Of a DNA stretch of 23,919 nucleotides, positions 12,023 to 14,480 are shown piece after piece (positions within the stretch are counted from its first letter, which is position 1; every line of letters starts with the position of its first letter). The position numbers and the translations under genes are program-made. The stretch comes from a virus. The stretch covers positions 1 to 23,919 of IMG/VR virus record IMGVR_UViG_3300020401_000092, one strand, 5' to 3'. Under the pieces are notes generated by a model. The model did not search any database. It had not been told where the DNA came from and saw only the letters and a list, made by a program, of their open reading frames with translations.

Positions 12023-12508
12023 GCTTGCCGCCTCATCCAAAGCCTGACGCAACAGCGACACTGGCGTATCTTTCGACCATTTCCAATTAAGCCTATGCGC
12101 CCACGTGGTTGCAAACTCACCATGACCACACACGCCGATTAGCACAGATGCTTGCCGCAACGTTAGACGCCCCAACACGTCACGCACTTGCTCCCTCGAA
12201 TAGACTTCATCATCTACCCCACCGCCTACTCCCGCACTTGCGCCATATCTCGCTGTGACCCTGTTTTGATGAACAGACCTGTAATAGTGTTGCCGAAAAA
12301 GGTTACCAGCTTCGTATTGTTTGTCAGTCAGCAAGCTTCGATGCAACATTACATCTAATGGGTGTTCATATCTCACACGGCGAACAGTCTGCACAGCCTT
12401 ACCGCCTTTAGGTTTAAACGCTACATCATCAACTGGACTATGTTGGCTTCTCTCTGGCGTTTCTCGTAACTCTGGCGGCTCTAATGCTTCTTTCTTTTTA
12501 CTCATCAT
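12008..12508 (-). CDS. DUF6456-like protein in the replication operon
   Basis: A 166-residue protein with a disordered charged N-terminus (about 1-45), then RRVRYEHPLDVMLHRSLLTD and KQYEAGNLFRQHYYRS, and a C-terminal helical part (DVLGRLTLRQASVLIGVCGH). The HPLD...L...QYEAG..FR..Y pattern resembles, from memory, the alphaproteobacterial/phage DUF6456 family, of unknown function and probably DNA-related. The start overlaps the DnaA-like gene's 3' end by 11 bases, and AAGG lies directly before. Being the last gene of the replication operon suggests a regulatory or replication-accessory role. Confidence 0.55.
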   Translation of the reverse strand: MMSKKKEALEPPELRETPERSQHSPVDDVAFKPKGGKAVQTVRRVRYEHPLDVMLHRSLLTDKQYEAGNLFRQHYYRSVHQNRVTARYGASAGVGGGVDDEVYSREQVRDVLGRLTLRQASVLIGVCGHGEFATTWAHRLNWKWSKDTPVSLLRQALDEAASLWKL

Positions 12509-13031
12509 ACCTTTCCAGATATATATGTTGTCGGCGTAAAATCCATGAATTTAGATTTTCTTCGATGACTTGTAACCGCTCTGCAAAGTCAGCATCTTGC
12601 ATAATTTTGTCTTTTATTACTTTTACACCATGCAAGACAGTCGTGTGATCACGCTCTAACATTCTGGCAATTTGTGTTACACCCATACTGCGACAATGTT
12701 TTTCAGCTAAATACATTACTACCTGACGTGGCAATGCAATGTGTGACGTTCTGTTTTGCAGATTGAAATTACACATTGGGTCTAAATCGAACTCTTGCGC
12801 CACAAACTCTTTAATCTGTGCAAACACTTCAGCCTCTTTGTAGCGTGTGTTGATAGCATGATTTAGTGATAGGTGAGGTTCTACGGCAAGCTGTTCTGAC
12901 AATTTGCTAACCAGCCACGCCGTCTTTTTGTCATCCATTGCGTAGTCAATAACAGGCTTCGCTTGGCCTTGTATAAAAATTTGTAGCCGTAACGGTTGAC
13001 CGCCGTGTTTTGGAAATACGTTTAATCGCAT
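12498..13031 (-). CDS. DnaA domain IV (DNA-binding) protein without the AAA+ part
   Basis: A 177-residue protein. Residues about 90-150 match the DnaA C-terminal DNA-binding domain: SHIALPRQVVMYLAEKHC, MGVTQIARMLERDHTTVLHG, VKVIKDKI. The DHTTV signature (128-132), which contacts the DnaA box, is intact. The N-terminal 85 residues (VFPKHGGQPLRLQIFIQGQA and a helical part) are not the ATPase and are unfamiliar. GAGG lies before the ATG; the gene overlaps the initiator's end by 10 bases. It may bind DnaA boxes on phage or host origins, aiding phage initiation or blocking host initiation. The domain assignment is firm; the role is inference. Confidence 0.82.
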   Translation of the reverse strand: MRLNVFPKHGGQPLRLQIFIQGQAKPVIDYAMDDKKTAWLVSKLSEQLAVEPHLSLNHAINTRYKEAEVFAQIKEFVAQEFDLDPMCNFNLQNRTSHIALPRQVVMYLAEKHCRSMGVTQIARMLERDHTTVLHGVKVIKDKIMQDADFAERLQVIEENLNSWILRRQHIYLERYDE

Positions 13032-13864
13032 TGTACCACCCTCATTTTTGTTTTTGCTTTCATCCTCACGACATTACTTGGCAAATTTGCACCCTCTGGC
13101 GCTTGTTGTATGAGCATCGTCTTTTCATTATCGGTTGCCTCATAAAAAGCTTGTTGGATGAGCCGTTCTTCTTGCAATCGAGTCTGATCAGTTGCCCACG
13201 GCTGTTTACCGATATTGCCATACTTCTCCCATTGTGCTTGCAATCTTTTAACAGCACTCGTCTTTTCGGTGTTTTCGTAAACGTCATTGCGCCAATAATC
13301 GCCATCCATCATTTGCTTCAGCCATGTTGCACAATGAGCGAAACTTTGCCAATCAGGTTTAGTTCTAATATATGCTTGCAAGTCACTCATAATTTTTTCT
13401 GTGGTTGTGCCTTTTTTTCGTGTTTTCACAAACCGTTGTCTGGCAGAATTTTTGTCACCCTTCTTGTTTGGATACTTACTGTAGAATTGCTCAAACTCTT
13501 CGTGCATTTTTTCTTGAACACTATTTATATTCTTATCTTGTTTCTTATCTTGTTTCTTAGAGTATAACTGTGAGACATCTGTTATCTCACCATGAGACTT
13601 CTGATGTCTCACTGTGAGACTTCTCCCATCATCCATAGGCAGGGTAATTGTGTAAGATGAACTGCGGCCTGTCTTCTCCCAGATGATGTAATTTCGTCTT
13701 TTCAAACTCTGTAAACACCTGTGTACCGTGGCGCGACTCAACCCTGTTTCTTCGGTTAGTGTGTCGATGGATGGAAACACGTTAGGCAGATGGCTTGCCA
13801 AAATTAACAGCGTCAACTTTTCGCTAGGCGGTAACCGTAAGTCACGAATAGTCGGCAATATCAT
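13022..13864 (-). CDS. Lambda-O-like replication initiator (winged-helix N-terminus)
   Basis: A 280-residue protein. Residues about 10-75 form a winged helix: LPPSEKLTLLILASHLPN, PSIDTLTEETGLSRATVHRC, LQSLKRRNYIIWEKTGRSSS. A hydrophilic linker (about 78-118) follows, then a domain with FEQFYSKYPNKKGDKNSARQ and FAHCATWLKQMMDGDYW, the C-terminal pattern of phage O-like/DnaT-like proteins that recruit helicase loading factors. The ATG at 13864 is fixed by an ATGA overlap with the upstream gene and by GGGAAG before it. The linker DNA carries 22-bp iterons and an AT-rich stretch, so the gene probably contains the origin, as in lambda O. No helicase or loader gene is seen in the window, so host DnaB loading is likely. 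Confidence 0.78.
   Translation of the reverse strand: MILPTIRDLRLPPSEKLTLLILASHLPNVFPSIDTLTEETGLSRATVHRCLQSLKRRNYIIWEKTGRSSSYTITLPMDDGRSLTVRHQKSHGEITDVSQLYSKKQDKKQDKNINSVQEKMHEEFEQFYSKYPNKKGDKNSARQRFVKTRKKGTTTEKIMSDLQAYIRTKPDWQSFAHCATWLKQMMDGDYWRNDVYENTEKTSAVKRLQAQWEKYGNIGKQPWATDQTRLQEERLIQQAFYEATDNEKTMLIQQAPEGANLPSNVVRMKAKTKMRVVQCD
13501..13636. other. Predicted phage origin of replication (iterons plus AT-rich region)
   Basis: Three direct copies of TGAGAC(A/T)TCT(G/C) start at 13571, 13593 and 13615, exactly 22 bp apart. The first two 22-bp units share 17 of 22 bases and each is a near palindrome (unit 2: TGAGAC, seven bases, GTCTCA); the third keeps only the left half. Beside them, 13501-13560 is 73% A+T by my count and contains a 12-bp tandem repeat. 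In the reading direction of the gene the order is winged helix, iterons, AT-rich DNA, C-terminal domain, the same as in lambda O. The role is inferred from that parallel. Confidence 0.7.
13531..13559. repeat. 12-bp tandem repeat in the AT-rich part of the putative origin
   Basis: Two and a half copies of TTATCTTGTTTC in a row. In the initiator it encodes KKQD repeated. All-pyrimidine-biased strand, low duplex stability; plausible melting element. Confidence 0.75.
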
Positions 13865-14181
13865 TTTATGCACTTCCCTTCCGTTTCCATGTATTTAATC
13901 ACCAGCGTCTTTTGATTTGGCTCTGTCACCGTCAACACCGTGTCGGGTGGCGCACCCTCTAAAATCTTTCTCACCCAAGCCAAGCCACCCTTCTTGCGCT
14001 TTTGCTCGTTAGGTAACTGTTTGCCGTTTGGGTAAGTAAGCCAATTATCATATGAATTTTTTGCGCCCAATTGTCCGGCTCGTTTGTCAACACGAAATCC
14101 TTTTACTCCAATCTTTTCAAATTGACGTAAAACTTTTTGCTCATCAGCATAGCCAAGTCTTGCGGCGCGACTTTTAGCCAT
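13861..14181 (-). CDS. PD-(D/E)XK-like protein, possible Holliday junction resolvase
   Basis: A 106-residue protein starting MAKSRAARLGYADEQKVLRQ. The pattern helix with Glu (14), G-R-V-D-K-R-A-G region, Asp45 in NSYDNWL, Glu59-Gln-Lys61 in PNEQKRKKGGLAWV, then a helix and a final strand (KTLVIKYME) follows small phage PD-(D/E)XK resolvase-like nucleases, which cleave branched recombination intermediates. The usual (D/E)VK is here EQK and the strand before it is Pro-rich, so activity is uncertain. The ATG at 14181 overlaps the HTH gene's stop by eight bases and the end forms ATGA with the initiator. Placement in the replication operon fits. Confidence 0.45.
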   Translation of the reverse strand: MAKSRAARLGYADEQKVLRQFEKIGVKGFRVDKRAGQLGAKNSYDNWLTYPNGKQLPNEQKRKKGGLAWVRKILEGAPPDTVLTVTEPNQKTLVIKYMETEGKCIK

Positions 14182-14383
14182 GCCACAACTCATCTACAAA
14201 AGTGTCGGCATCTTTAACTTTTTGCACTAACAACTTTTCTAACTGTTTTCGTGTTTTAATGCTTGCGGGTAAACCGCGATTTTTCCAGTGTGTAACAGCA
14301 GACGGCGTAACGCCTATCATCTCTGCAACCAACGAAACGCCGCCAAGTGCGTCAATAATTTTTCTGGCTAAGTAAACATCCAT
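14174..14383 (-). CDS. YdaS/Cro-like HTH protein, first gene of the replication operon
   Basis: A 69-residue protein, MDVYLARKIIDALGGVSLVA, then EMIGVTPSAVTHWKNRGLPA. The HTH (about residues 12-36: GGVSLVAEMIGVTPSAVTHW) and the following NRGLPASI are typical of the YdaS/Cro group that sits next to lambdoid replication operons. AGGTGA lies five bases before the ATG. It faces the plus-strand recombination operon across a 97-base divergent region, so it likely regulates itself and the rightward genes. This is the second small HTH regulator in the window and is unlike the one at 11834. Confidence 0.78.
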   Translation of the reverse strand: MDVYLARKIIDALGGVSLVAEMIGVTPSAVTHWKNRGLPASIKTRKQLEKLLVQKVKDADTFVDELWHG

Positions 14384-14480
14384 AAATCACCTGTATTACA
14401 TTTTGTTAAGTCTTTCAACCGTTATAACTTGTCACGTTACAAAAAGTAAAGTAAGGTGTAAAAAATTTTTGGAGAAGATT
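14384..14480. promoter_or_regulatory. Divergent control region between replication and recombination operons
   Basis: The 97 bases are AT-rich. A perfect 8-bp palindrome GTTATAAC (14421-14428) offers TATAAC as a -10 on both strands, but no good -35 lies 16-18 bases from it in either direction (plus: TTTTGT; minus: TACTTT). Promoters here may therefore need an activator, or the palindrome may be the operator of the HTH protein at 14383. The first plus-strand gene has the TTTTTGGAGAAG ribosome site at 14463-14474. Confidence 0.35.

Follow-up and report, generated by a model that had tools for sequence, protein, structure and literature searches.

The window analysed here is a virus record of 23,919 bases (IMG/VR record IMGVR_UViG_3300020401_000092), and the element in question is a block of three phased inverted-repeat sites (iterons) inside its replication initiator gene, adjoined by an A-rich tract. 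Judging from the sequence, block and tract very probably form a phage replication origin of the lambda type, where the initiator would be bound, probably as dimers, the tract opened and the helicase loaded. This supplies an uncultured phage group with a precise and small candidate origin (~105 bp), together with its initiator. The features concerned are the following:

13022–13873, minus strand: replication initiator gene (283 aa), with an N-terminal winged helix-turn-helix (HTH) domain (HTH_36) and a C-domain of the phrog_270 type
13606–13620, minus strand: iteron 1 (first in coding order), a perfect 15-bp dyad; GTCTCACTGTGAGAC, listed for the minus strand as GTCTCACAGTGAGAC
13584–13598, minus strand: iteron 2, a near-perfect dyad; ATCTCACCATGAGAC, listed for the minus strand as GTCTCATGGTGAGAT
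13562–13576, minus strand: iteron 3, with one arm intact and the other degenerate, adjoining the A-rich tract; GTATAACTGTGAGAC, listed for the minus strand as GTCTCACAGTTATAC
13517–13561, minus strand: tract (78% A+T) whose coding strand is rich in A and which contains the 12-bp repeats; likely unwinding element
13530–13553, minus strand: two exact 12-bp tandem repeats

Searches of both strands of the whole record found exact copies of TGAGAC(A/T)TCT at 13571, 13593 and 13615 and nowhere else, which confirms the motif and the exact 22-bp spacing reported in an initial annotation of this DNA. In the dyad register, the 15-mers start 22 bp apart and are separated by 7-bp spacers. Each full unit had been described as a near palindrome; two are good dyads, and the third has one degenerate arm. 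A 10-bp inverted repeat said to join units 1 and 2 was located instead at units 2 and 3 (13603–13612/13614–13623); units 1 and 2 of the initial annotation are spanned by a longer and weaker inverted repeat (29-nt arms, 76%). With up to two mismatches allowed, GTCTCACNGTGAGAC matches only the three 15-mers in the record, and the reversed control pattern has no match. The half-sites TGAGAC/GTCTCA are not enriched (nine seen, ~10.8 expected), and four of the nine lie within 50 bp at the iterons. Chance expectation was estimated by permuting synonymous codons within the initiator gene, with the protein and its codon usage kept. The observed score for phased palindromic dyads was reached by 3 of 2000 such shuffles, the repeat scores by none of 2000 and the joint score by none of 1000.

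A scan of viral contigs with the initiator returned three loci (L004, L005 and L006) of 97–98% identity, and a scan with the downstream gene added a fourth, L010, whose initiator is 91% identical. The iteron block is in register in all four of these near relatives. At up to two mismatches, three sites are recognized in each of L004, L005 and L006 and two of the three in L010. Six distinct changes were seen in the three 15-mers: three fall at positions 7–8, the centre, of iteron 1, an arm of iteron 2 has one (in L006), and iteron 3 has two (in L010). Among degenerate codons, synonymous change is less frequent within the iteron block (2 of 18) than in the rest of the gene (73 of 221; one-sided p 0.04), a deficit that lends the origin modest support.

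More distant initiators (C72C1, MW202738 and BK5-T) carry other repeats at the same place, and the DNA flanking them is similar in kind. A tblastn search of 50,697 phage records returned nine, all of less than 60% identity (MW202738, BK5-T and relatives of BK5-T). In BK5-T (AF176025), a repeat region is annotated inside the initiator gene; its iterons are four copies of TACACAnATGTAAA, dyad-like 14-mers ~22–23 bp apart. MW202738 has its own 24-bp unit, present twice, and C72C1 (OQ984150) has 24-bp units. Thus, the comparison of iterons among related initiators that the initial annotation had proposed came out in its favour, with sites kept in near relatives and different ones in the equivalent position further away. 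We scanned 27 initiator genes (20 of the C72C1 family, four of the window group, MW202738, BK5-T and lambda O) for repeats, and in 27 of 27 the strongest short-period repeat begins at 0.29–0.43 of the gene; as these genes are related, they do not amount to 27 independent cases. For 25 of the 27 genes, no more than 8 of 500 codon shuffles equalled the repeat (2 of 500 for lambda O), the exceptions being L019 (96) and L024 (32). The iterons start at a similar relative place in the window and in lambda O (0.29 and 0.38 of the gene, respectively).

The C72C1 family, for which a scan gave 24 loci, is informative on how domain and repeats travel. Its initiators (L013 20557–21384 and L016–L035) combine three types of N-terminal DNA-binding domain with one C-domain, and each type has its own repeats: TGACAC/GTGTCA dyads in type I, a 15-bp CCGTTGAC repeat in type II and GGTGTC/GACACC dyads in type III. 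The C-domains of C72C1 (type I) and L018 (type II) are 97% identical, and those of L016 and L024 94%. DNA similarity starts at nt 396 in the pair C72C1/L018 and at nt 405 in the pair L017/L022, in both cases past the A-rich tract. The C-domain tree requires five type changes against a minimum of two, with many of its branches weakly supported and L020 on a long branch. Binding domain, iterons and A-rich tract thus swap together as one unit. Such joint swapping is what one would predict for repeats to which the neighbouring domain binds, and a cassette moving against a constant C-domain would explain how initiator and origin stay matched through phage recombination. Initiator–origin specificity was reportedly studied long ago, by Furth and Yates in 1978, with lambda–phi80 and lambda–82 hybrids. 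The type II initiators (L018, L021–L028) have a 15-bp period instead of 22–24 bp and hence another helical phasing.

The A-rich tract was described in the initial annotation as 60 bp of 73% A+T with a 12-bp tandem repeat, and both statements hold: A+T content is 73.3% across 13501–13560 (77.8% across 13524–13568), and the repeat is exact. The 45 nt on the C-domain side of the iterons have an A+T content of 78% and, on the coding strand, a purine content of 71%, compared with 76% and 69% in lambda. This purine bias matters because the lambda tract is strongly strand-asymmetric, according to a passage in PMC5043065. In each of the 13 genes measured (14 were given and L020 was left out), the coding strand directly past the iterons has more A than T. 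The two copies of the 12-bp repeat differ in concert between the window and L010, as though homogenised, which is the behaviour of a tandem repeat.

The initiator itself matches HTH_36 at 7.7e-10, with MarR-like similarity also present. The phrog_270 profile ('replication initiation protein') matches it at 1.1e-23 over residues 10–236, covering both domains, and matches the initiators of BK5-T and MW202738 at 1.3e-62 and 4.2e-28. The 'O-like' profile phrog_678 matches it at 2.4e-9 (residues 31–185) and lambda O at 1.7e-35. Pfam Phage_rep_O (PF04492), which lambda O matches at 5.7e-36, gave no match to the window initiator at E 0.1, and hhalign of A2 against lambda O alone gave a probability of 0.2%. 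Sequence searches for relatives of solved structure returned none for lambda O and chance matches only for the window initiator. By descent, then, these profiles mark the protein as a phrog_270/HTH_36 initiator that is linked to lambda O via phrog_678 and does not match Phage_rep_O; the label 'lambda-O-like' is apt for how the origin is built. The predicted domain order is a winged helix, an unstructured linker and a helical C-domain, in a model with a mean predicted local distance difference test score of only 47.7 that is poor outside the winged helix. Residues 85–104, which the iterons encode, would span the end of the winged helix and the start of the low-confidence stretch 91–121, in agreement with the earlier placement of the iterons in the linker, weak as the model is. 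The earlier claim of a lambda-like order is borne out by the annotated O gene, which has the same succession of DNA-binding domain, inverted-repeat iterons, A-rich tract and C-domain.

By analogy with lambda, the initiator, probably as dimers, would bind the three phased iterons in its own gene via the N-terminal winged helix. A nucleoprotein complex would form, bend the DNA and open the A-rich tract under negative supercoiling; the helicase would enter at the opened tract, on the C-domain side, and replication would start at this site. In passages of PMC5043065, O dimers are described as binding the inverted-repeat iterons of lambda, with opening of the adjacent 40-bp A+T tract; passages on the lambda mechanism are also found in PMC7466680, one of which, citing Dodson 1986, states that two iterons and the adjoining tract are enough for unwinding. 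Several points weigh against an origin in the window. Two of its three dyads are good, compared with four iterons in lambda, although, given that two suffice there for unwinding, a pair of good dyads with a weak third could be enough. Near relatives are few in number and closely similar; when limited to the L010 pair, the synonymous-change comparison (3 of 20 versus 53 of 224) is not significant (p 0.28), and the two changes in the iteron 3 of L010 fall in a site that was already weak. Promoter-like sites just upstream of the operon are not above chance (3 matches, 4.9 expected). GC skew was rejected as origin evidence because it tracks gene direction: it turns where transcription diverges and so cannot place an origin here.

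Three other explanations have to be set against an origin. Dyads bound by winged-helix proteins are often operators, and the HTH_36 and MarR-like similarity of the initiator would suit a protein that autoregulates its own gene through these sites. The sites are, however, 253 nt inside the coding region rather than at a promoter, an A-rich tract adjoins them, and initiators of different sequence share the layout, among them lambda O, in which it forms the known origin; operators in place of an origin are therefore improbable. Linkers tolerate repeats, and the 12-bp A-rich repeat appears to turn over as a tandem repeat, as might be expected if the iterons were selected at the protein level, as a repetitive linker peptide, or were a by-product of tandem duplication. 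However, 22 is not divisible by three, so that each of the three copies falls in its own reading frame and specifies its own peptide, and the pattern is lost in codon shuffles that preserve the peptide, which leaves this explanation with very little to recommend it.

It is equally hard to credit that the origin lies elsewhere and that loading of the initiator at the iterons serves some other function, such as timing or partition. IMG/VR classes the record as linear, which often means a fragment, and other candidate origins may lie out of sight; yet the record holds no other such sites, and with up to two mismatches allowed a 37-kb relative has just one extra. A lambda-type origin at the iterons thus remains the reading that we favour.

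Two genes precede the initiator:

14174–14383, minus strand: Cro/YdaS-like HTH gene, upstream of the initiator and in the same direction
13861–14193, minus strand: 110-aa gene without known function, flanked by the Cro-like gene and the initiator gene

The initial annotation held the genome to be otherwise unlike lambda, but this Cro/YdaS-like gene and a divergent operon of SSB and an exonuclease-like gene bring the early region closer to lambda than that implies. The gene order would fit transcription from an early promoter through the putative origin, where promoter-like sites are not above chance. A dyad spotted by eye between the divergent early operons (TTGTCACGTTACAA, 14429–14442) is a possible operator for the Cro-like protein. 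The integrase model PF00589 had no match in three records (L004, L010 and C72C1), and the models for DnaB_C, IstB/DnaC-like proteins and lambda P (PF06992) had none in three records of the window group (the window, L004 and L010). The place of lambda P is taken by another gene:

12498–13031, minus strand: stand-alone DnaA domain IV gene (177 aa), encoding the DnaA-box binding domain without AAA+

This gene overlaps the initiator gene by 10 nt (13022–13031), as P overlaps O by 4 nt in lambda. Its product matches Bac_DnaA_C at 1.6e-15 and solved DnaA structures from 1e-7; Pfam detects no AAA+ domain in the 177-aa protein, which is thus not a full-length DnaA. The window and the relatives inspected (L062–L064 and the sub-threshold L052 were left out) retain the signature RDH(T/S)(T/S)V. 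DnaA domain IV was found in all seven records first tested and in 13 of 21 records of the C72C1 family, the eight misses being seven contigs of 4.0–10.3 kb and G023 (27 kb). In 11 of the 13, the open frames are 123–134 aa long and hence too short for an AAA+ domain. One of 11 comparison phages had the domain above the cut-off and two more below it; when the terminases are ranked by similarity to that of the window, these three take the third, fourth and fifth places (41–43%), and the second-ranking MW202879 (48%) had none. The gene directly follows the initiator in the window group, whereas in C72C1 (OQ984150 26387–26581), where a profile picked up what tblastn had missed, it directly follows SSB within the recombination operon; other locations are L010 5001–5531 and L055–L066. 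A tblastn search for relatives in named phages gave eight matches, all 'human fecal' records, and was discarded: the three of the eight that were opened are bacterial dnaA–dnaN loci and not phages. L041, L042 and L043 (MT835859, MT837016 and MT836067) are fecal 'Bacteriophage sp.' deposits that hold a bacterial dnaA beside dnaN. The genome collection contained no relative of the initiator and a single contig with the DnaA domain IV gene, L044 (PBIO01000021.1, 34,887 bases), binned in a Halobacteriovorax metagenome-assembled genome. L044 agrees in length and range with the contig of L010 and is thus a viral contig that was placed in that bin; Halobacteriovorax is a possible but weak hint at the host.

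DnaA boxes as a second origin element were tried and rejected. At up to one mismatch, TTATNCACA occurs 27 times in the window (29.9 expected) and 11 times in L010 (12.0 expected); exact copies number none in the window, one in the 37-kb record, none in the 35-kb and 10-kb records and one in C72C1, with no array. As DnaA boxes are not overrepresented in the phage DNA, a host target seems at least as likely as a phage target, and the near-absence of exact boxes, with no excess of near ones, points to the host. It is conceivable, though doubtful, that the two genes form a module unlike O–P, in which an iteron-bound HTH_36 initiator is paired with a DnaA domain IV that either aids the phage origin in the loader's place or sits on the DnaA boxes of the host origin. 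In the latter case, domain IV without the ATPase would block host initiation and free the helicase for the phage. What could be new biology here is that stand-alone DnaA domain IV proteins recur among such phages; searches of the open-access literature, judged by titles and abstract openings, listed nothing on C72C1, on this origin or on a phage that combines a stand-alone DnaA domain IV with an initiator of the O type.

Among known systems, iteron plasmids such as RK2 and P1 likewise have phased initiator sites beside A+T-rich DNA, whereas the sites in the window are inverted repeats (dyads) in a coding region and not direct-repeat monomer sites. C72C1 (terminase 53% identical to that of the window) and its IMG/VR relatives (L016–L035) share the HTH_36 initiator, the linker iterons, the A-rich flank and a DnaA domain IV gene in the genome; they differ in their TGACAC/GTGTCA dyads, their 24-bp and other periods (15 bp in the second type), their C-domain and, in C72C1, the separation of the DnaA domain IV gene from the initiator. 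Lactococcus phage BK5-T has a phrog_270 protein, dyad-like repeats inside its gene and an A+T-rich flank, with a different iteron sequence and a protein of 27.6% identity over 70%.

The closest parallel in layout is the lambda origin in gene O (NC_001416). The iteron sequences differ; the window has three sites at a uniform 22 bp and lambda four at 20, 24 and 23 bp; and the window lacks a match to Phage_rep_O or to lambda P, with the DnaA domain IV gene in the place of P. Both have phased inverted-repeat iterons in mid-gene, a coding strand that is A-rich and purine-rich on the C-domain side, and an initiator gene that lies downstream of a cro-like gene and is followed by an overlapping gene. 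The arrangement is thus one already known from phage lambda, of which the window is a good further example and not a new kind.
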